NCBI RefSeq assembly: GCF_008365385.1
Contig: NZ_QOVF01000002.1
Location: 558,001 to 622,000 of the forward strand
Length of the DNA stretch: 64,000 nt
DNA from: Halopseudomonas laoshanensis
Lineage (GTDB): Bacteria; Pseudomonadota; Gammaproteobacteria; Pseudomonadales; Pseudomonadaceae
Direction of reading: 5' to 3'
The stretch's first letter is position 1. Every line of letters begins with the position of its first letter. A program made the translations under genes and the position numbers. The notes under the pieces are model-generated. The model ran no database searches. It was not told the origin of the DNA and was given only the letters and a program-made list of their open reading frames with translations. Below are positions 51,705 to 59,289 of the stretch, one piece after another.

Positions 51705-54440
51705 CTACTCGAGCAGACCCAGCACCTTGGCTTGTGCCACGGCTTGAGTGCGCCGCTCCACACCCAACTTGTTATTGATACGCCGCGCGTGGCTTTTCAC
51801 TGTGTGCAGCGAAATGAACAGCGCCTCGCTGATCTGCTGATTGGAATAGCCTTGAGCGATACAGCGCAGCACGTCCAGCTCGCGGGTGCTGAGTGAGTCC
51901 TGCAGCGTGGCGGCGATAGTCTGCCCGTCCGGCCGGTCGATGGTCGGCAGCGTACCCAGCAGCCGGTCACGCAGACGCGATGCCGGTGCGCGCGCTAACG
52001 AATCCACCAGGCCAGGTGGTGCCTGATGCAGCAGGGGCAGAAAGGGTCCGCTGATATTGTCTTCGACCGCCAGCGCGAGTGCGGCTAACAGGATCTTTTC
52101 CGCTTCCATCGGCCGCTGCAGGCGATACAGCATGCGCACCAGCAGCGCCATCACCGACAGCGCCTGCAGATGCTGCCCGCCGTGCTGCAATTGGCTTAAC
52201 AGTGCGCGCAATACGCTTTCGGCCGCCACCTGCTCGCCGCGTGACCAGAGCAGCCGCGCATACACACGTTCAATCAACACCGGCAGGGCATGAAAAAACA
52301 TCGGCGGCGCGGCGGGATTTTCCAGGCAATAAGTCTGACGCAGACGCGGCAGCCAATGTTCGGCCAGGTCGTGACGGCCGGAGGTAATCCACAGATCGCT
52401 TTTCAGCGCGGTACCCCAACCCAGGTAATACACCGGCGGAATATCCCACTGGTGCATCAGCCGTTCGGCCTCGGTCAGGGTTTCGAACGCGAGTCCATCT
52501 CCGCCGCGCATCTGCGCTTGCATGCCGGCCAGAAGACAGTAACCCGGCAGCACGTGCACATCACGACAATCCCGTGCTTCCTCAATGCCCTGGCGCAGCA
52601 GTTCCATGGCCTCGTCGTTGTCACCCAAGAGGCCAAGCAGATAACCGTGATACACGGTTAACCGCGCGCGCACCGGCAAACCCTGCGGATGGACCATGCC
52701 GGCCAGCAACCGGCGTTGACCGGCAACCGCTTGCAACGCCCTGGCGACCTGGCCACGCGCCTGCATCAGGCGTGCGCGCATCAGCACCGCCTGCGCTTCG
52801 AGCAACGGATCAGTCACCCGTTGCGCCAACTCAAGCGCCGAGCGTGCCCAATGCCGCGCGGCATCTATGTGCTGCGCGCACAGCTCGCTATCGGCCAAGG
52901 TCAGCATCGCCATCACCCGGCTGCCCGCTTCGCGATCATCCAGGCAGGCCAGGGCCTGATGAGCACAGAGCATGGCCTCTTCCAAATGCCCGGCAGAGCG
53001 TGCCAGAAACGCCTTGAGGGCCAATGCCTGGCCCAGCAGGCAGCGCTGCTGATAGGCATCCGGCTGCGGCAAAAAATGTTGCAACCGTTGCAGCATCGCT
53101 TGCGCCTCCTCCAACTGGCAGGCCAGCGCCAGAGTCCAGGCGTGCACCATCACCAACCGCGCGGAGCTGCCCTGCAAGACCCCGGGTAACTCCGCCTTCC
53201 AGCGCAGCAGCGTGCCGACATGTTGCTCGGCCAATAACCGATCCAGCGACAAGTGTTGTACCAGGCTGGCCGCTTCATCCGGACGCTCAGCGGCAAGCGC
53301 CTGCTCTACCGCATCGGCAATCCGCCCCTGTTGGCGGAACCAGTCGCAGGCGCGCAGATGCATCTGCAATCGCTCGCGCGGATGTTCGCTCGCGCCGCGC
53401 TCGCGCAGCACATCGGAGAACAGATGATGAAAGCGGTACCACTTGCCTTCGCGATCCAGCGGCACCAGAAACACCTGATGCTGGGTCAGGTAGTGGATGA
53501 TCTGCTGGCTGTCCTGCGCCTGCCGCACGTGGTCGCACAGTTCGATGGTGAAACGATCAAACCAGGCTATTTGCTGCAGGAACTGCTGCACTGCCGGCGG
53601 CTGATGCAGAATGACCTCTTCCAGCAGATATTCGCCGATCAACTGTTCGGGCTGAGTATCCGTTGCATCACGCAAATGGTGTCGACCGCCGCGCGCATGG
53701 TCCGCCTGTTGCGCGGTCATCGCCAATAACCGCAGCCCGGCAATCCAGCCTTCGTTGCGTTGCAGAATGTGCCGCAACCATTGTGGTTCGGCGCCAGCCA
53801 GGCCAGCACTGTCGAGAAAGGCGGCCGCCGCCTCGCGACTCAGACGCAAGTGCTTTTCGCCGATTTCCAGCAGTTGGTTGCCCAGCCGCAAACGGGCCAG
53901 ATGCCAATCCGGCCGCCGTCGGCCAGTGATCAACAACTGAAAGCCCTGGGGCAGTTGCTCAAGCAGCAGCGCACACAGCCGGTCGGTCTGTGGCCCGCAG
54001 ATCAGGTGGTAATCATCCAGCACCAGCAGCACTGGCGTATCGGCGTTATGCACACGGCGCAGATCCTGCAGAAGCGAGGTGACCAATTGTTCGCTACCCA
54101 GCGGCTGATGACTCTGCTGCTGGCCGAGAAGCTCAAGCTCCTTGCCGCCCAACGAGGGGTAGAGCGTGCGCAACCCCTGAATCAAACTACGCAGTAGCTG
54201 CCCCTGCTCGCCATCCTGGGGATCCAGAGACAGCCAGATAGAGCGCCAGGGCGCAGATAGCTGTTCGGAATACTCAATGGCTAAAGTCGTTTTGCCAAAA
54301 CCGGCGGGGGCGCAGACGAGAATCAGCCGACGTTGGGCGGCTTGCTGTAGAAGGGCTACCAGTGCAGGACGTGACAAATGGTCCGGTGGAAGCGGCGGAC
54401 GAAATATCTTGCCGGGGATGGGTGCGATCGAGGTAGCCAT
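51705..54440 (-). CDS. Large MalT-type LuxR family ATP-binding activator
   Basis: 911 residues (STAND class): Walker A APAGFGKTT (about 44-52), an arginine-rich ATPase region, a long TPR-like middle, and a C-terminal LuxR HTH LSTRELDVLRCIAQGYSNQQ followed by LHTVKSHARRINNKLGVE (about 845-905). MalT-type proteins bind an inducer and ATP, oligomerise and activate promoters. ATG 54440 (MATSIAPIPGK) is the likely start. The nearby DUF1329 and acyl-CoA ligase genes share an upstream element and are good candidate targets (inference). Confidence 0.92.
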   Translation of the reverse strand: MATSIAPIPGKIFRPPLPPDHLSRPALVALLQQAAQRRLILVCAPAGFGKTTLAIEYSEQLSAPWRSIWLSLDPQDGEQGQLLRSLIQGLRTLYPSLGGKELELLGQQQSHQPLGSEQLVTSLLQDLRRVHNADTPVLLVLDDYHLICGPQTDRLCALLLEQLPQGFQLLITGRRRPDWHLARLRLGNQLLEIGEKHLRLSREAAAAFLDSAGLAGAEPQWLRHILQRNEGWIAGLRLLAMTAQQADHARGGRHHLRDATDTQPEQLIGEYLLEEVILHQPPAVQQFLQQIAWFDRFTIELCDHVRQAQDSQQIIHYLTQHQVFLVPLDREGKWYRFHHLFSDVLRERGASEHPRERLQMHLRACDWFRQQGRIADAVEQALAAERPDEAASLVQHLSLDRLLAEQHVGTLLRWKAELPGVLQGSSARLVMVHAWTLALACQLEEAQAMLQRLQHFLPQPDAYQQRCLLGQALALKAFLARSAGHLEEAMLCAHQALACLDDREAGSRVMAMLTLADSELCAQHIDAARHWARSALELAQRVTDPLLEAQAVLMRARLMQARGQVARALQAVAGQRRLLAGMVHPQGLPVRARLTVYHGYLLGLLGDNDEAMELLRQGIEEARDCRDVHVLPGYCLLAGMQAQMRGGDGLAFETLTEAERLMHQWDIPPVYYLGWGTALKSDLWITSGRHDLAEHWLPRLRQTYCLENPAAPPMFFHALPVLIERVYARLLWSRGEQVAAESVLRALLSQLQHGGQHLQALSVMALLVRMLYRLQRPMEAEKILLAALALAVEDNISGPFLPLLHQAPPGLVDSLARAPASRLRDRLLGTLPTIDRPDGQTIAATLQDSLSTRELDVLRCIAQGYSNQQISEALFISLHTVKSHARRINNKLGVERRTQAVAQAKVLGLLE

Positions 54441-54491
54441 GCCGCCAAGTGTATCGGCATGGTCCTCAGGCTGTCTTGTCGATTTGTAACA

Positions 54492-54522
54492 GACCCCAAC
54501 CAGCATCAAGCTGGCTGGGGTC
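54492..54522 (-). terminator. Hairpin after the DUF1329 gene
   Basis: GACCCCA-n-CCAGC and its complement flank a 5-base loop, 25 bases beyond the DUF1329 stop. No U-run, so it may slow or protect the transcript end. Confidence 0.5.
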
Positions 54523-54546
54523 AATCGGCATTAGCCGTATGCAGTC

Positions 54547-55908
54547 TTAGCGAACGCCGGACTGACGCAGAGCTGCGGGAGTGAAGTCGGTGGAGCTGGC
54601 TTTGTGCTCGTAGTTGTAGTCGCCAGACTCCTCGTTGTTCATACCCATGGCCAGGTAACGGCCGGCAACCAGGTCATACAGGGTCTCGGCGGCGAAGCCA
54701 GGAACCTGCGCCTTGTAGCGATGCAGAGCGTGAGCCTCGGCTACACGCCAGAGCTCGCCACGGCCATCGTAATGATCGATGTGGCCAGCCTGCCAGGAAT
54801 CCTCGTCAATGAAGAAGTGACGCTTGGCGTAAATGTGACGCTCGCCTTCCTTGACGGTGGCAACCACTTCCCAGGTGCGATGCAGTTCATAGCGCGCCAG
54901 CTCGGGGTTGAGGTGGCCGGGCTGGATCAGGTCATCGTACTTCACGTCGGGCGAACCCATGCGATAGCTGTTGTAGGCAATGTACTGCTCTTTCTTGCCA
55001 ACCAGTTCCCAGTCGTAACGATCAGGTGCGCCGTTGTACATGTCCAGGTTATCGGAAGTACGCATGCCGTCAGCTGCGGTGCCCGGGCCGTCATAGGACA
55101 CTTGCGGAGCGCGACGTACGCGGCGTTGGCCGGCGTTGTAAATCCACGCCATACGCGGGGTGGCAACCTGGTCAACTGTTTCGTGCACCAGCAGTACGTT
55201 CCCAGCCAGACGGCCTGGATCAGTTACCTGCTGCTTGAAGTAGTAGAGGATATTACCCATGGTGTCGGCGTTGTAATCGGTCAGCCCCTGGGGCAGCACG
55301 TATTCTTCAACGAAACGGACGATGGTGTAGTTACCATTGGTTTGCGGCGTCGCCTGAGTGACGATGCGCTGCAAAGAGTCACCACGGTAGCGGGTGATGT
55401 GGTTCCAGATCACTTCCAGGCCGTTGGACGGGATCGGAAAGGCAATGGCCTTATCGTAACCGGTCACACCGTTACCACCCTGAACCAGCTTGGAGTTGGT
55501 GGCGTTGCGCTTGGCGGCTTCGTAGATGGCGTCCGGTAGCGCAACACTGCGGCGGCTTTCGTAGACCGGCATCTTGAAGGTTTCAGGATAGCGCTTGAAC
55601 ATGGCGATCTGACCGGGGGCCAGATTGTCCTGATACTCTTCGTAGTTGGCCGCGGTGATCTCGAACAACGGCTTGTCGTCGGCGTAAGGATTTGCGCTGA
55701 AGCCCTTGGCATCAATGGCCGCGGCGTCAGTGGCCAAACCGCCGGTCCACTCGGGAATGGTGCCGGACGCATTGCCGGCTTTCTCGGCGCCAATGGGCGT
55801 GAGGCTATTGCCCAGCTCGGCGGCCTGCTCTGCAGTGGCGGCCACGCTGGAGGCGCTGAAGGCCATGGCAGAAGCTACCAGGGCGCTATAGACCAAATTC
55901 AGTTTCAT
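54547..55908 (-). CDS. DUF1329 domain secreted protein
   Basis: 453 residues with a signal peptide (LVYSALVASAMAFSASSVAA). The mature part fits DUF1329: GNSLTPIGAEKAGNASGTIP, EWTGGL, PIPSNGLEVIWNHI TRYRG (read with one break) and VPGFAAETLYDL. DUF1329 proteins are exported and often neighbour lipid or fatty-acid degradation genes; function unknown, but sometimes thought to be outer membrane lipid-related. Start ATG 55908 follows GAAAGATT. Its promoter holds the element shared with the acyl-CoA ligase. Confidence 0.88.
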   Translation of the reverse strand: MKLNLVYSALVASAMAFSASSVAATAEQAAELGNSLTPIGAEKAGNASGTIPEWTGGLATDAAAIDAKGFSANPYADDKPLFEITAANYEEYQDNLAPGQIAMFKRYPETFKMPVYESRRSVALPDAIYEAAKRNATNSKLVQGGNGVTGYDKAIAFPIPSNGLEVIWNHITRYRGDSLQRIVTQATPQTNGNYTIVRFVEEYVLPQGLTDYNADTMGNILYYFKQQVTDPGRLAGNVLLVHETVDQVATPRMAWIYNAGQRRVRRAPQVSYDGPGTAADGMRTSDNLDMYNGAPDRYDWELVGKKEQYIAYNSYRMGSPDVKYDDLIQPGHLNPELARYELHRTWEVVATVKEGERHIYAKRHFFIDEDSWQAGHIDHYDGRGELWRVAEAHALHRYKAQVPGFAAETLYDLVAGRYLAMGMNNEESGDYNYEHKASSTDFTPAALRQSGVR

Positions 55909-56022
55909 AATCTTTCTCTACTGGCTGAGGCCGGCAATAAATGCCGACACAGTGATCGGTCGTTCGGGCCGAGAAAACCTGCATATGACAATACAGTTAA
56001 GCACACGTCCACGAACAGCCGC

Positions 56023-56068
56023 GCACTATAGCCAAGCGCCACCCGGGGGTGATCCGTCCAAAGTATGA
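56023..56068 (-). promoter_or_regulatory. Promoter element of the DUF1329 gene, copy 1 of a shared motif
   Basis: On the minus strand TCATACTTTGGA (56068-56057) lies 19 bases before GCTTGGCTATAGTGC (56037-56023), whose TATAGT is a plausible -10. There is no -35 consensus, so the first block sits where an activator would bind (about -44). Confidence 0.7.
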
Positions 56069-56123
56069 TTTTGTCTCACGCAGGAATGGGGAAAAACACC
56101 AACAAGGAGGCCCGAAAAGTCAG

Positions 56124-56148
56124 AGGGATGGCATGAATTGCCATCCCT
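56124..56148. terminator. Hairpin downstream of the acyl-CoA ligase
   Basis: AGGGATGGC and GCCATCCCT form a 9-bp perfect stem with a 7-base loop in the gap between the ligase stop and the DUF1329 promoter. On the minus strand CTGACTTTT follows, so it is a fair terminator for the ligase. Confidence 0.65.
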
Positions 56149-56210
56149 CGACTGAGCCCGCCAGCGGCTTGACGCTAAGTGTTACCGCGCCAAATTGCCG
56201 CTGAAGCGCA

Positions 56211-57893
56211 TTAAAGCGTTGAAAGGAAAGGTGCTTCTGCCTCCTGCCATTGTGCGATGTCGCCGCGGATGACCTTCTTGTTCAGCTTGCCAACGCTGGT
56301 TTTGGGTATTTCGGTAACACAGGCGATCTGCGTGGGGATGGCCCACTTGTTGATGCGCCCTTCGTCGGCATATTGCTTGAGATGGTCACGCAGAATACGC
56401 GCATCCATGTCCTTGCCGGCATGCGGCACGATCAGCGCGAAGGGACGCTCGCCCCACTGCGGGTCAGGCACACCGACCACGGCGACTTCCTTCACGGCGG
56501 CGCACTTGCTGATCAGATCCTCCAGCTCCAGCGACGAAATCCACTCACCGCCGGTCTTGATCACGTCCTTGATCCGGTCGCGGATATCGATAAAGCCCAT
56601 CTCATCGATGGAAGCCACATCACCGGTATGCATCCAGCCGTGGGCCCAGAGCTCGTCGCTCTTTTCAGGCTCCTTGTAGTAACCCTGGGTCAGCCAGGGT
56701 GAGCGCAGCACCAGTTCACCCTGGGTCTTGCCGTCATGCTCTAGGAAGTTGCCTTCGGGATCCATCAAGCGCGCTTCCGCGAGTGGCACCGGCACACCGG
56801 CCTTGATGCTGTAAGCGGCCTGCTCGTCTTCACTGCCCTGCTCCACTTCCAGGTTGATGTAACCACTGGAGATCAACGGACAGGTCTCGGACATGCCATA
56901 AGCGGCAGACAGTTTCATGCCCTTGGCCTTGGCTGCATCGTAGAGGCTGCGGTTCAACGCGCTACCGCCGATGATGATTTTCATGCCGCCGAAGTCGTAA
57001 TCCTGCGCGCCCTCAGCATTGAGCACCATTTGCAGAATGGTGGGTACGCAGTGGGAGAAGGTGACCTTCTCCTGCTTGATCAGTTTGCACAGCATTTCCG
57101 GCTCATAACGACCCGGGTAGACCTGCTTGGTGCCCAGCAGTGTCGCGGTATAAGGAATGCCCCAGGCATGCACGTGGAACATCGGCGTGATCGGCATATA
57201 CACATCGCGGTTGCCGAACAGGCGCATGCTGTCCAGACCGCCCATCAGCGCCGCCTGGGTCATGGTGTGCAGCACCAGTTGGCGATGGGTGAAGTACACG
57301 CCCTTGGGGTTGCCAGTGGTACCAGTGGTGTAGAAGGTGGTGGCTACCGAGTTCTCGTCAAAATCGGCGAACTCATAGGTCGGCTCGGCGGCGGCGAGCA
57401 GCTCTTCGTACTCACCTACCAGACCCGGCAGATCGGCGGTCTTCTCGTCGCCATCGGTCAGCAAAATGGTATTGGTGACGGTGGTGAGATCGTTCTCGAT
57501 GGCCTTGTAGATCGGCACAAACTCGGCATTGACCAGCACGAAGATATCTTCGGCGTGGTTCATGGTGTAGAGGATCTGATCGGGCGACAGGCGAATGTTG
57601 ATGGTGTGCAGTACCGCGCCGAGCATCGGGATGGCGAACATGCATTCGAGATAGCGATGGCTGTCCCAGTCCATCACCGCCACGGTGTCACCGGCTTTCA
57701 CGCCGGCGGCGCTCAGGGCATTGGCCAGGCGGCAGATACGCTGATTGAAGGTAGCGTAGTCGTAGCGGCTGATGTCGCGGTAGACGATTTCCTGGCTGCG
57801 CTCATAGCGCTGGCCTGAGAGCAGGATGTTCTTGATCAGCAGCGGTGTCGAATGAGCACCGGGCGTCGGTTTGATCACGCGGGTATTGAGCAT
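56211..57893 (-). CDS. Acyl-CoA ligase (AMP-forming, AlkK/FadD type)
   Basis: 560 residues: TTFYTTGTTGNPKGVYFTHR (AMP-binding P-loop), MSETCPLISSG, and the C-terminal lysine region PKTSVGKLNKKV. It resembles medium/long-chain acyl-CoA synthetases of the AlkK group. It activates free fatty acids for beta-oxidation. It is divergent from the thiolase, and its promoter carries the element shared with the DUF1329 gene. Start ATG 57893 (MLNTRVIKPTPGAHSTP). Confidence 0.92.
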   Translation of the reverse strand: MLNTRVIKPTPGAHSTPLLIKNILLSGQRYERSQEIVYRDISRYDYATFNQRICRLANALSAAGVKAGDTVAVMDWDSHRYLECMFAIPMLGAVLHTINIRLSPDQILYTMNHAEDIFVLVNAEFVPIYKAIENDLTTVTNTILLTDGDEKTADLPGLVGEYEELLAAAEPTYEFADFDENSVATTFYTTGTTGNPKGVYFTHRQLVLHTMTQAALMGGLDSMRLFGNRDVYMPITPMFHVHAWGIPYTATLLGTKQVYPGRYEPEMLCKLIKQEKVTFSHCVPTILQMVLNAEGAQDYDFGGMKIIIGGSALNRSLYDAAKAKGMKLSAAYGMSETCPLISSGYINLEVEQGSEDEQAAYSIKAGVPVPLAEARLMDPEGNFLEHDGKTQGELVLRSPWLTQGYYKEPEKSDELWAHGWMHTGDVASIDEMGFIDIRDRIKDVIKTGGEWISSLELEDLISKCAAVKEVAVVGVPDPQWGERPFALIVPHAGKDMDARILRDHLKQYADEGRINKWAIPTQIACVTEIPKTSVGKLNKKVIRGDIAQWQEAEAPFLSTL

Positions 57894-57958
57894 AATGTAT
57901 GACCTGTTTGTTGGGCTTGTATGGTCTGGTCGCAGGCATCAAGGCCTATCGTTGCGCT

Positions 57959-58006
57959 GCACTATAGCCAAGCAGGGGTCGGGCGACCTATCACTCCAAA
58001 GTATGA
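57959..58006 (-). promoter_or_regulatory. Promoter element of the acyl-CoA ligase, copy 2 of a shared motif
   Basis: Same two blocks as at 56023-56068: TCATACTTTGGA (58006-57995) then GCTTGGCTATAGTGC (57973-57959), now 21 bases apart. Again no -35 consensus. Confidence 0.7.
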
Positions 58007-58043
58007 ACCGGATCACACTCGGGATGCAGCGCTTTTTTAAGCG

Positions 58044-58049
58044 TATAAT
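58044..58049 (+). promoter_or_regulatory. Possible -10 box of the thiolase gene
   Basis: A perfect TATAAT lies 58 bases before the thiolase ATG. No matching -35 box is visible, so activator help is possible; the shared motif at 57995-58006 is about 38 bases upstream. Confidence 0.5.
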
Positions 58050-58107
58050 TGCGCAAAATGTCGCTATATGACCATCAAACCAACATCAGTCATTTTCAGG
58101 AGCAAAC

Positions 58108-59289
58108 ATGTCCGACAACAGCATTGTAATCGTTAGCGGAGCACGCACGCCCATGGGCGGATTTCAGGGCAGCCTGTCCAGCGTACCCGCTGTGGATCTG
58201 GGCGCGCTGGCGATTGCCGAAGCGGTCAAGCGTGCCGGCATCGCCGCCGAAGATGTGCAGGAAGTGATCATGGGCTGCGTACTACCCGCCGGCCTGAAGC
58301 AGGGCCCAGCCCGCCAGGCCAGCCTGAACGCCGGCCTGCCCGCCGCGACCGGTTGCACCACGATCAACAAGCTGTGCGGCTCCGGCATGAAAGCCGTGAT
58401 GCTGGCTCACGACCTGCTCAAGGCCGGCACCAACCAGGTGATGGTCGCCGGCGGCATGGAGAGCATGTCCAACGCGCCTTACCTGATGGAAAAAGCCCGT
58501 AGCGGCCTGCGCATGGGCCATGGCGAGATCAAGGACCACATGTTCCTTGACGGCCTGGAAGACGCCCGCACCGGCCGGCTGATGGGCTCCTTCGCCCAGG
58601 AAACCGCAGACAAGTACGGCATCAACCGTGAGGACATGGACGCCTACGCCATCGAGTCGCTAACCCGGGCAAAGAAAGCCATTGAAAGTGGCGCGCTGGA
58701 TAGCGAGATCGTCCCGGTCACCGTGACCACCCGCAAGGGCGAAACTCTGGTCAAGGACGACGAACAGCCGCACAACGCCAACCTGGAAAAGATCCCCGGC
58801 CTGAAGCCGGCGTTCAGAAAAGACGGCAGCATCACCGCCGCTAACGCCAGTTCAATCTCCGACGGCGCCAGCGCGCTGGTACTGATGACCGCCGCTGAAG
58901 CCGAAAAGCGCGGCCTCAAGCCGCTGGCCCGTATCGTCGGCCACGCGACCCAGAGCCAGGATCCGAGCGAGTTCACCATCGCGCCCATCGGCGCCATGAC
59001 CAACCTGTTCAACAAGACCGGCTGGAACAAGGACGACGTCGATCTGTTTGAAATCAACGAAGCCTTTGCCATGGTCACCATGCTGGCCATGCGCGAACAC
59101 GGCCTGGACCACGCCAAGGTCAACATCTACGGCGGCGCCTGCGCCCAGGGCCACCCGGTCGGCTCCACCGGCTCACGGATTATCGTTACGCTGATCAACG
59201 CCCTGCAGAAAACCGGCGGCAAGCGCGGTGTGGCGTCATTGTGCATTGGTGGCGGCGAAGCGACAGCCGTAGCTATCGAACTGATCTAA
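58108..59289 (+). CDS. Acetyl-CoA C-acetyltransferase (thiolase)
   Basis: 393 residues, degradative/biosynthetic thiolase I-II type: acylatable Cys in NKLCGSGMKAVMLAHD, active-site NEAFAM, GGACAQGHPVGSTGSR with the C-terminal catalytic His/Cys, and LCIGGGEATAVAIE. It cleaves or forms acetoacetyl-CoA. Divergent from the acyl-CoA ligase with a 214-base shared promoter region; both likely belong to lipid metabolism. AGGAG lies 7 bases upstream of the ATG. Confidence 0.94.
   Translation: MSDNSIVIVSGARTPMGGFQGSLSSVPAVDLGALAIAEAVKRAGIAAEDVQEVIMGCVLPAGLKQGPARQASLNAGLPAATGCTTINKLCGSGMKAVMLAHDLLKAGTNQVMVAGGMESMSNAPYLMEKARSGLRMGHGEIKDHMFLDGLEDARTGRLMGSFAQETADKYGINREDMDAYAIESLTRAKKAIESGALDSEIVPVTVTTRKGETLVKDDEQPHNANLEKIPGLKPAFRKDGSITAANASSISDGASALVLMTAAEAEKRGLKPLARIVGHATQSQDPSEFTIAPIGAMTNLFNKTGWNKDDVDLFEINEAFAMVTMLAMREHGLDHAKVNIYGGACAQGHPVGSTGSRIIVTLINALQKTGGKRGVASLCIGGGEATAVAIELI

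Follow-up and report, generated by a model that had tools for sequence, protein, structure and literature searches.

An element with a dyad and a TATAGT hexamer as the probable operator-promoter of a MalT-type regulator beside fatty-acid genes of Halopseudomonas laoshanensis

The gene cluster and two copies of the element

The window, that is, the whole 64,000-nucleotide stretch analysed here, contains a fatty acyl-CoA ligase gene (AMP-binding), a DUF1329 gene and a gene for a MalT-type regulator on one strand, and a thiolase gene divergent from the ligase gene (Table 1). Upstream of DUF1329, TCATACTTTGGA (56057-56068, minus strand) is followed after 19 nt by GCTTGGCTATAGTGC. Upstream of the ligase gene, TCATACTTTGGA (57995-58006, minus strand) is followed after 21 nt by GCTTGGCTATAGTGC, and the two copies share a 15-letter identity. 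The original prediction had noted both blocks ahead of these two genes, 19 and 21 bases apart, and its positions are exact in the window. It overlooked the letters directly after the first block, TGAT or GGAT, which are the right half of the site. The first block makes up the left half of a dyad together with its core; the dyad is TCA-N10-TGA on the ligase side and imperfect (TCA-N10-GGA) on the DUF1329 side. Comparison with relatives extends the conserved part beyond this block, to TCATACTTTGGAGTGAT on the ligase side and TCATACTTTGGACGGAT on the DUF1329 side. With +1 set seven bases past the last -10 base, so that all starts are predicted ones, the centre of the ligase-side dyad lies at -44.5 from the ligase start and at -57.5 from the thiolase start. 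A promoter scan of 54380-58200 detected no -35/-10 pair (0 against a mean of 1.8 in shuffles).

Table 1. Features of the cluster, in window coordinates
Feature	Position	Strand	Remarks
MalT-type regulator gene, 911 aa	51705..54440	-	proposed activator
13-bp GC-rich hairpin between DUF1329 and regulator	54492..54522	-	no T run
DUF1329 gene	54547..55908	-	proposed target
-10 hexamer TATAGT, putative DUF1329 promoter	56025..56030	-	predicted start 56018
Candidate operator copy 2, DUF1329 side	56052..56068	-	TCATACTTTGGACGGAT; centre -42.5 from predicted start
Intrinsic-terminator-like hairpin 3' of ligase	56123..56149	-	divides ligase and DUF1329 units
Fatty acyl-CoA ligase gene (AMP-binding)	56211..57893	-	proposed target
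-10 hexamer TATAGT, putative ligase promoter	57961..57966	-	predicted start 57954
Candidate operator copy 1, ligase side	57990..58006	-	TCATACTTTGGAGTGAT; dyad TCA-N10-TGA, centre ~57998.5
-10 hexamer TATAAT, putative thiolase promoter	58044..58049	+	predicted start ~58056
Divergent thiolase gene	58108..59289	+	possible third target

For the search of the whole 4.1-Mb genome, the gap in the proposed pattern was widened from N28-36 to N14-36. TACTTTGGA-N14-36-TATAGT had exactly two matches, both of them the window sites, and its backwards control had none. With the gap as originally proposed, the ligase copy was found and the DUF1329 copy was missed, because the gap is 28 nt at the former and 26 nt at the latter. 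When up to two mismatches were allowed, TCATACTTTGGANNGAT gave the two exact sites and two 2-mismatch sites in this genome, compared with three matches for the control. As the extra sites (L205 and L206) were at control level and fall within open stretches 501 and 308 codons long, a wider regulon in this genome was rejected. The genome has 10 DUF1329 matches.

The hairpin 3' of the ligase gene was one of six such sites in a terminator scan (shuffles: mean 2.9, sd 1.8), and its stem is the longest among them; the segment 56115-56160 folds at -25.5 kcal/mol (z -5.4). As this hairpin parts the ligase gene from DUF1329, each unit would need its own promoter, which would explain the two copies of the element. 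Between DUF1329 and the regulator gene, the segment 54470-54546 folds at -36 kcal/mol (z -5.0), and the hairpin in it is possibly a partial terminator or a processing site. It is very stable and could reduce expression of the regulator relative to DUF1329.

The gene calls for DUF1329, ligase and thiolase hold, and so does that for the 911-residue MalT-type protein, to which the original prediction had pointed as a neighbour. This protein has an N-terminal P-loop ATPase (AAA_22 above the cut-off, AAA_16 just below), a MalT TPR region (PF17874, 3.8e-23) and a C-terminal GerE (LuxR) helix-turn-helix (HTH; PF00196, 7.1e-19). Among 19 homologues, the Walker columns APAG-GK and LxLDxYH are invariant and the HTH is strongly conserved, and the regulator is 90% identical in a same-genus relative (G011). 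The best-scoring solved chain was MalT (8bob), and the MalT equivalog model was not passed (329.6 bits against a cut-off of 537).

Dyad shape and spacing among relatives

To describe the element in relatives, we used a set of named loci, the best 80 of at least 591, in 74 of which the ligase gene is present. These 74 include six Halopseudomonas-type loci, which have short arms, and several named loci come from the same assemblies as genomes of the samples used below, so the sets overlap. The counts for named loci, as well as those for Halopseudomonas, are descriptive, since the later patterns were built after these sequences had been viewed. A first pattern, TCA..CTTT, was dropped, as it recognised the ligase site at no more than 17 of the 74 loci; it missed most of these sites because their core is shifted by one letter (TCATTCCTTTGG), and scoring of the dyad arms found them. 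The ligase-side element was then present in 73 of 74 loci (L232 was missed), with a distance from TCA to the -10 of 38 nt in 64 loci, 39 nt in three and 40 nt in six. The second, downstream element was present in 74/74 loci, always at 38 nt. The same finder gave 0/74 when the letters of either stretch were reversed, and 0/74 inside the ligase gene.

The ligase arms of Pseudomonas are longer, AAATCA-N10-TGATTT, and perfect in 62 of the 74 loci; those of Halopseudomonas and of the second site are shorter. Ligase coding stretches of equal length, scored in the same way, gave a best arm match of no more than 9 of 12. The second site scored 9 or 10 of 12, hardly above that background maximum; the arms alone therefore fail to single it out, and its case consists of core, spacing and -10 together. 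Measured from the predicted starts, the dyad centre is at -42.5 for the ligase gene of most Pseudomonas and for DUF1329 of most Halopseudomonas, and at -44.5 for the ligase gene of most Halopseudomonas. LuxR-type class II promoters have their site centred at -42.5. The layout here, judged from predicted starts, is of that class: a centre near -42.5 and a weak or absent -35. The conserved spacing and the dyad shape across relatives thus bear out the earlier placement of the first block near -44 and of the -10 within the second block.

The same data bear on the possibility that the blocks chiefly form a strong basal promoter (an extended -10, CTTGGCTATAGT, with upstream DNA) that was duplicated and has no specific activator. 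The -10 block is well conserved and the window copies share their 15 identical letters, as such a promoter would predict. However, conservation extends to the part at -42.5, with dyad arms at a fixed spacing, and in Pseudomonas it is the ligase -10 that is weaker (TAGAGT, TAAAGT, TACAGT or TAGATT in 67/73), with perfect arms at 62 of the 74 loci. Further, regulator-free Halopseudomonas hold the genes but lack the block. We consider this the least probable of the readings weighed here.

In Pseudomonas, the order is second site, DUF1302, DUF1329 and regulator, with the second site mostly 130-170 nt past the ligase stop. The identity of DUF1302 comes from two loci, L213 (Pfam, 3.2e-180) and L314 (annotation). 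The usual second site, AAATCACACTTTAGAGGGATCA...GCTATAGT, is similar to the window site on the DUF1329 side. Among the Halopseudomonas loci L144-L181, ligase and DUF1329 share a stretch in 27 genomes; the gap between the two genes there is ~240-530 bp, too short for DUF1302. The arrangement with two promoters is probably old, and, judging from gap length, the loss of DUF1302 in Halopseudomonas appears to have left its promoter in front of DUF1329. The P. aeruginosa record CP109682.1 (L314) has the whole cluster and both elements. This record is labelled as a plasmid, and the cluster adjoins copA1, phoH and moa genes, surroundings that we take to be chromosomal.

Co-occurrence with the regulator and the divergent thiolase

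In a set of 37 Halopseudomonas genomes, with orthologues defined by at least 55% identity, the regulator was present in 15. The other 22 retain ligase and thiolase, which are divergent on the fetched stretches. The ligase-side element was found in 15/15 regulator-bearing versus 0/22 regulator-free genomes (G020 was read from its thiolase contig); Fisher's test gives 1e-10 for this difference, although the genomes are related and so not independent. Among genomes with DUF1329 on the fetched stretch, the DUF1329-side element was found in 13 of 14 with the regulator versus none of 13 without it, the one exception being G019, in which the regulator is present and this element absent. In a ligase-plus-thiolase tree, the regulator-free genomes form three groups, each with support 100, joined at support 20 and 32, and therefore stand for only one to three independent losses. 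The letters of the original prediction, searched as TACTTTGGA-N20-36-TATAGT, matched in 15 of 96 genomes, namely 13 Halopseudomonas, all regulator-bearing, and two distant genomes (G079 and G095); G018 had one further match elsewhere.

As a separate observation upstream of DUF1329 (loci L159, L160, L161, L180 and L158), a TCACCC...GGGTGA dyad lies just before TATAGT in G029 and G024, which have no regulator; it is degraded in G015 and G027, and only its left half is present in the regulator-bearing G019. This dyad is a possible replacement operator.

Outside Halopseudomonas, the ligase-side element was present in 12/12 genomes of other genera with an orthologue (at least 39% identity) among the first 96 genomes. 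It was absent from three regulator-free genomes whose ligase is 60-61% identical (G092, G044 and G059); G078 and G069, with more distant ligases, were left out. A strict pattern gave exactly two matches genome-wide, flanking the ligase gene, in 9/9 regulator-bearing non-Halopseudomonas genomes (G042, G043, G046, G049, G051, G055, G058, G096 and G097). Two genomes outside these nine gave no match (G053) and one match (G060), and in G060 element and regulator occur together in another family. Among eight regulator-bearing Halopseudomonas, five had one match and three had none, because the strict pattern requires ATCA and many of their copies read TTCA. Eight regulator-free genomes gave one match (G008), and the backwards control gave one in 27.

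We then drew 119 genomes evenly from the family, 36 of which had already been searched, so that this sample is partly fresh. With matches accepted at E up to 1e-130, the regulator was present in 57 of them. The strict element occurred in 46 of these 57 versus 2 of the 62 regulator-free genomes (G112 and G149), the latter being pooled irrespective of the presence of a ligase, and the backwards control matched in two genomes (G047 and G175). Of the 11 regulator-bearing genomes missed by the strict pattern, five hold a looser element (G001, G012, G019, G053 and G136). In the other six (G098, G106, G127, G134, G148 and G174), the reading covered the surroundings of the regulator gene, and no orthologous ligase was found there. 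The element is also kept where the regulator gene is unlinked from the ligase gene: ~83 kb away in P. wayambapalatensis (G096), on another contig in P. fluvialis (G097), ~41 kb away in G104 and ~416 kb away in G053.

It is also conceivable that another regulator, a paralogous MalT-type or a LuxR-family protein, binds the dyad and that the neighbour is merely linked to it. Many of the genomes contain several homologues, and two paralogous regulators (G042b and G049b) have a nearly identical recognition helix. However, in five paralogous DUF1329-regulator clusters (regulator identity 31-35%), the core plus -10 was found in 0/5. A looser core matched once in four of the five; these matches were discounted, as they lack a -10 and fall within open stretches 608-1101 codons long. 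Since a near-identical helix goes with clusters that lack the element, helix identity alone leaves targeting unexplained. The regulator-free G036 has a 35% paralogue and lacks the element, and across genomes the element tracks the adjacent regulator in presence and in loss, even when unlinked. Binding by another protein is therefore unlikely in our judgement. Co-occurrence, co-loss, retention when unlinked and absence at the five paralogue clusters all favour the MalT-type neighbour as the activator, as had been predicted.

The ligase-side dyad sits between the divergent ligase and thiolase genes, and the original prediction had guessed that it may control the thiolase too. As the thiolase -10 we took the best TATAAT-like hexamer past the dyad (T1, A2 and T6 fixed), chosen regardless of spacing. 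In 35/35 regulator-bearing loci with a divergent thiolase (32 loci from which identical upstream stretches had been removed, then three more; some are close relatives, such as G000 and G026, and thus not independent), the dyad centre fell at a narrow set of distances from the predicted thiolase start: -57.5 in 17, -58.5 in 14, -56.5 in one and -36.5 in three. The three -36.5 cases (G016, G021 and G023/L211) form one clade (support 100), and the distance there is shorter by exactly 21 bp, or two turns. By eye, the intervening DNA has no block common to Halopseudomonas and Pseudomonas, and the ligase leader varies in length (58-72 nt in Halopseudomonas). The constant spacing between dyad and thiolase -10 therefore lends support to the guess, and an additional action of the ligase-side site on the thiolase, from -57.5, is probable. 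Against this link, 18 of the 22 regulator-free Halopseudomonas retain a TATA-like hexamer ahead of the thiolase, and of the 74 named loci with a ligase, 58 have no thiolase on the stretch. We only tentatively propose that one dyad may serve two divergent promoters, the ligase promoter in class II fashion (-42.5/-44.5) and the thiolase promoter in a class I-like fashion (-57.5/-58.5).

Two other words were seen in this region. A TGAC-N16-GTCA dyad lies in the thiolase leader (58069-58092, plus strand) and is possibly the site of another regulator; by eye, similar TGAC/GTCA pairs were seen again in relatives, including regulator-free ones, and Pseudomonas thiolase promoters contain GTGAC...GTCAC. 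An ATCATAC-like word (GATCACAC in the window; 58011-58018, plus strand) precedes the thiolase -10 and, by eye, was seen again in many Halopseudomonas, both regulator-bearing and regulator-free.

Related systems and a proposed mechanism

The MalT target box is GGAKGA, and on reading, neither window element contains it. The regulator resembles E. coli MalT in its domain order (ATPase, TPR and GerE HTH) and differs in that its putative site is a dyad and its score is under the MalT equivalog cut-off. Most sites here share the dyad centre of -42.5, relative to predicted starts, with LuxR-type class II promoters, whereas the regulator is a large ATP-binding protein and not an acyl-homoserine-lactone receptor. 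By gene content, we take PP_0763-PP_0766 to be the corresponding cluster in P. putida KT2440 and PA3925-PA3921 that in P. aeruginosa; both have the same gene kinds as the window.

Among the closest known systems is AlkS, described in the accessible part of its source as a LuxR/MalT-family activator of alkane genes (AlkS-PalkB of Pseudomonas putida GPo1), with a 20-bp inverted repeat upstream of its target promoter and C6-C10 inducers (PMC8784404). The present regulator shares the family, and an inverted-repeat site upstream of the target promoter was likewise found. The proposed targets differ, being ligase, DUF1302/DUF1329 and perhaps thiolase, with no alkane hydroxylase among the neighbours. 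This comparison is by description.

Several reports, each available to us in part, bear on the function of the cluster. In P. putida, PP_0763 mutants are severely impaired on C5-C6 acids and moderately so on C7-C10 acids (PMC9744835), and PP_0765/PP_0766 (DUF1302/DUF1329) are essential on Tween20 and are proposed to be parts of a transport system (PMC10866462). In a protein-abundance table of P. aeruginosa MPAO1, a fatty acid-CoA ligase (-5.06), a DUF1302 protein (-2.80) and a DUF1329 protein (-2.62) have neighbouring locus numbers (PMC7603352). Counting against the proposed regulon, PP_0763 expression in P. putida was unchanged between strains and conditions in the portion of PMC10006253 available. 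In the literature excerpts at hand, PA3921 appears merely as a listed transcriptional regulator, and our literature search found no report of this regulator's binding site or of control of the cluster.

What is observed here is the sites together with their spacing, conservation and link to the regulator. On this sequence evidence, we consider it likely that the adjacent MalT-type activator governs a small dedicated regulon and that the shared element serves as the operator-promoter of this regulon; binding and activation, rather than repression, are what we infer. Working in the manner of AlkS, protein and element would most likely form a dedicated activator-operator pair for the use of medium-chain fatty acids. 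A signal derived from lipids would switch the MalT-type protein on; the likeliest candidates are a medium-chain fatty acid, the corresponding CoA ester and a lipid from which the acid is released. Once activated, it would bind the TCA-N10-TGA dyad centred at -42.5 to -44.5, substitute for the missing -35 and recruit sigma-70 polymerase to the TATAGT -10. The promoters so driven would be those of the ligase unit and the DUF1329 unit, and in Pseudomonas the second site would drive DUF1302-DUF1329.

The regulator could also bind the dyad as a repressor, as the present data do not directly separate the sign of regulation. This is very improbable, however, given a site centred at -42.5 on a promoter with no recognisable -35. 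The similar protein AlkS acts as an activator according to the accessible part of its source (PMC8784404), and regulator and site are lost together, as expected when an activator-dependent promoter is replaced.

Activation by the adjacent protein would give an uncharacterised MalT-type regulator a testable operator and regulon. The cluster of medium-chain acyl-CoA ligase, DUF1302 and DUF1329 is important to P. putida for using fatty acids and surfactants, as far as the available parts of the reports above describe it. If the two-mode reading of the ligase-side dyad is true, thiolase, ligase and DUF1302/DUF1329 would form one switch under a single unstudied regulator. Within Halopseudomonas, the co-loss of the regulator and its candidate sites would represent a case of regulon rewiring.
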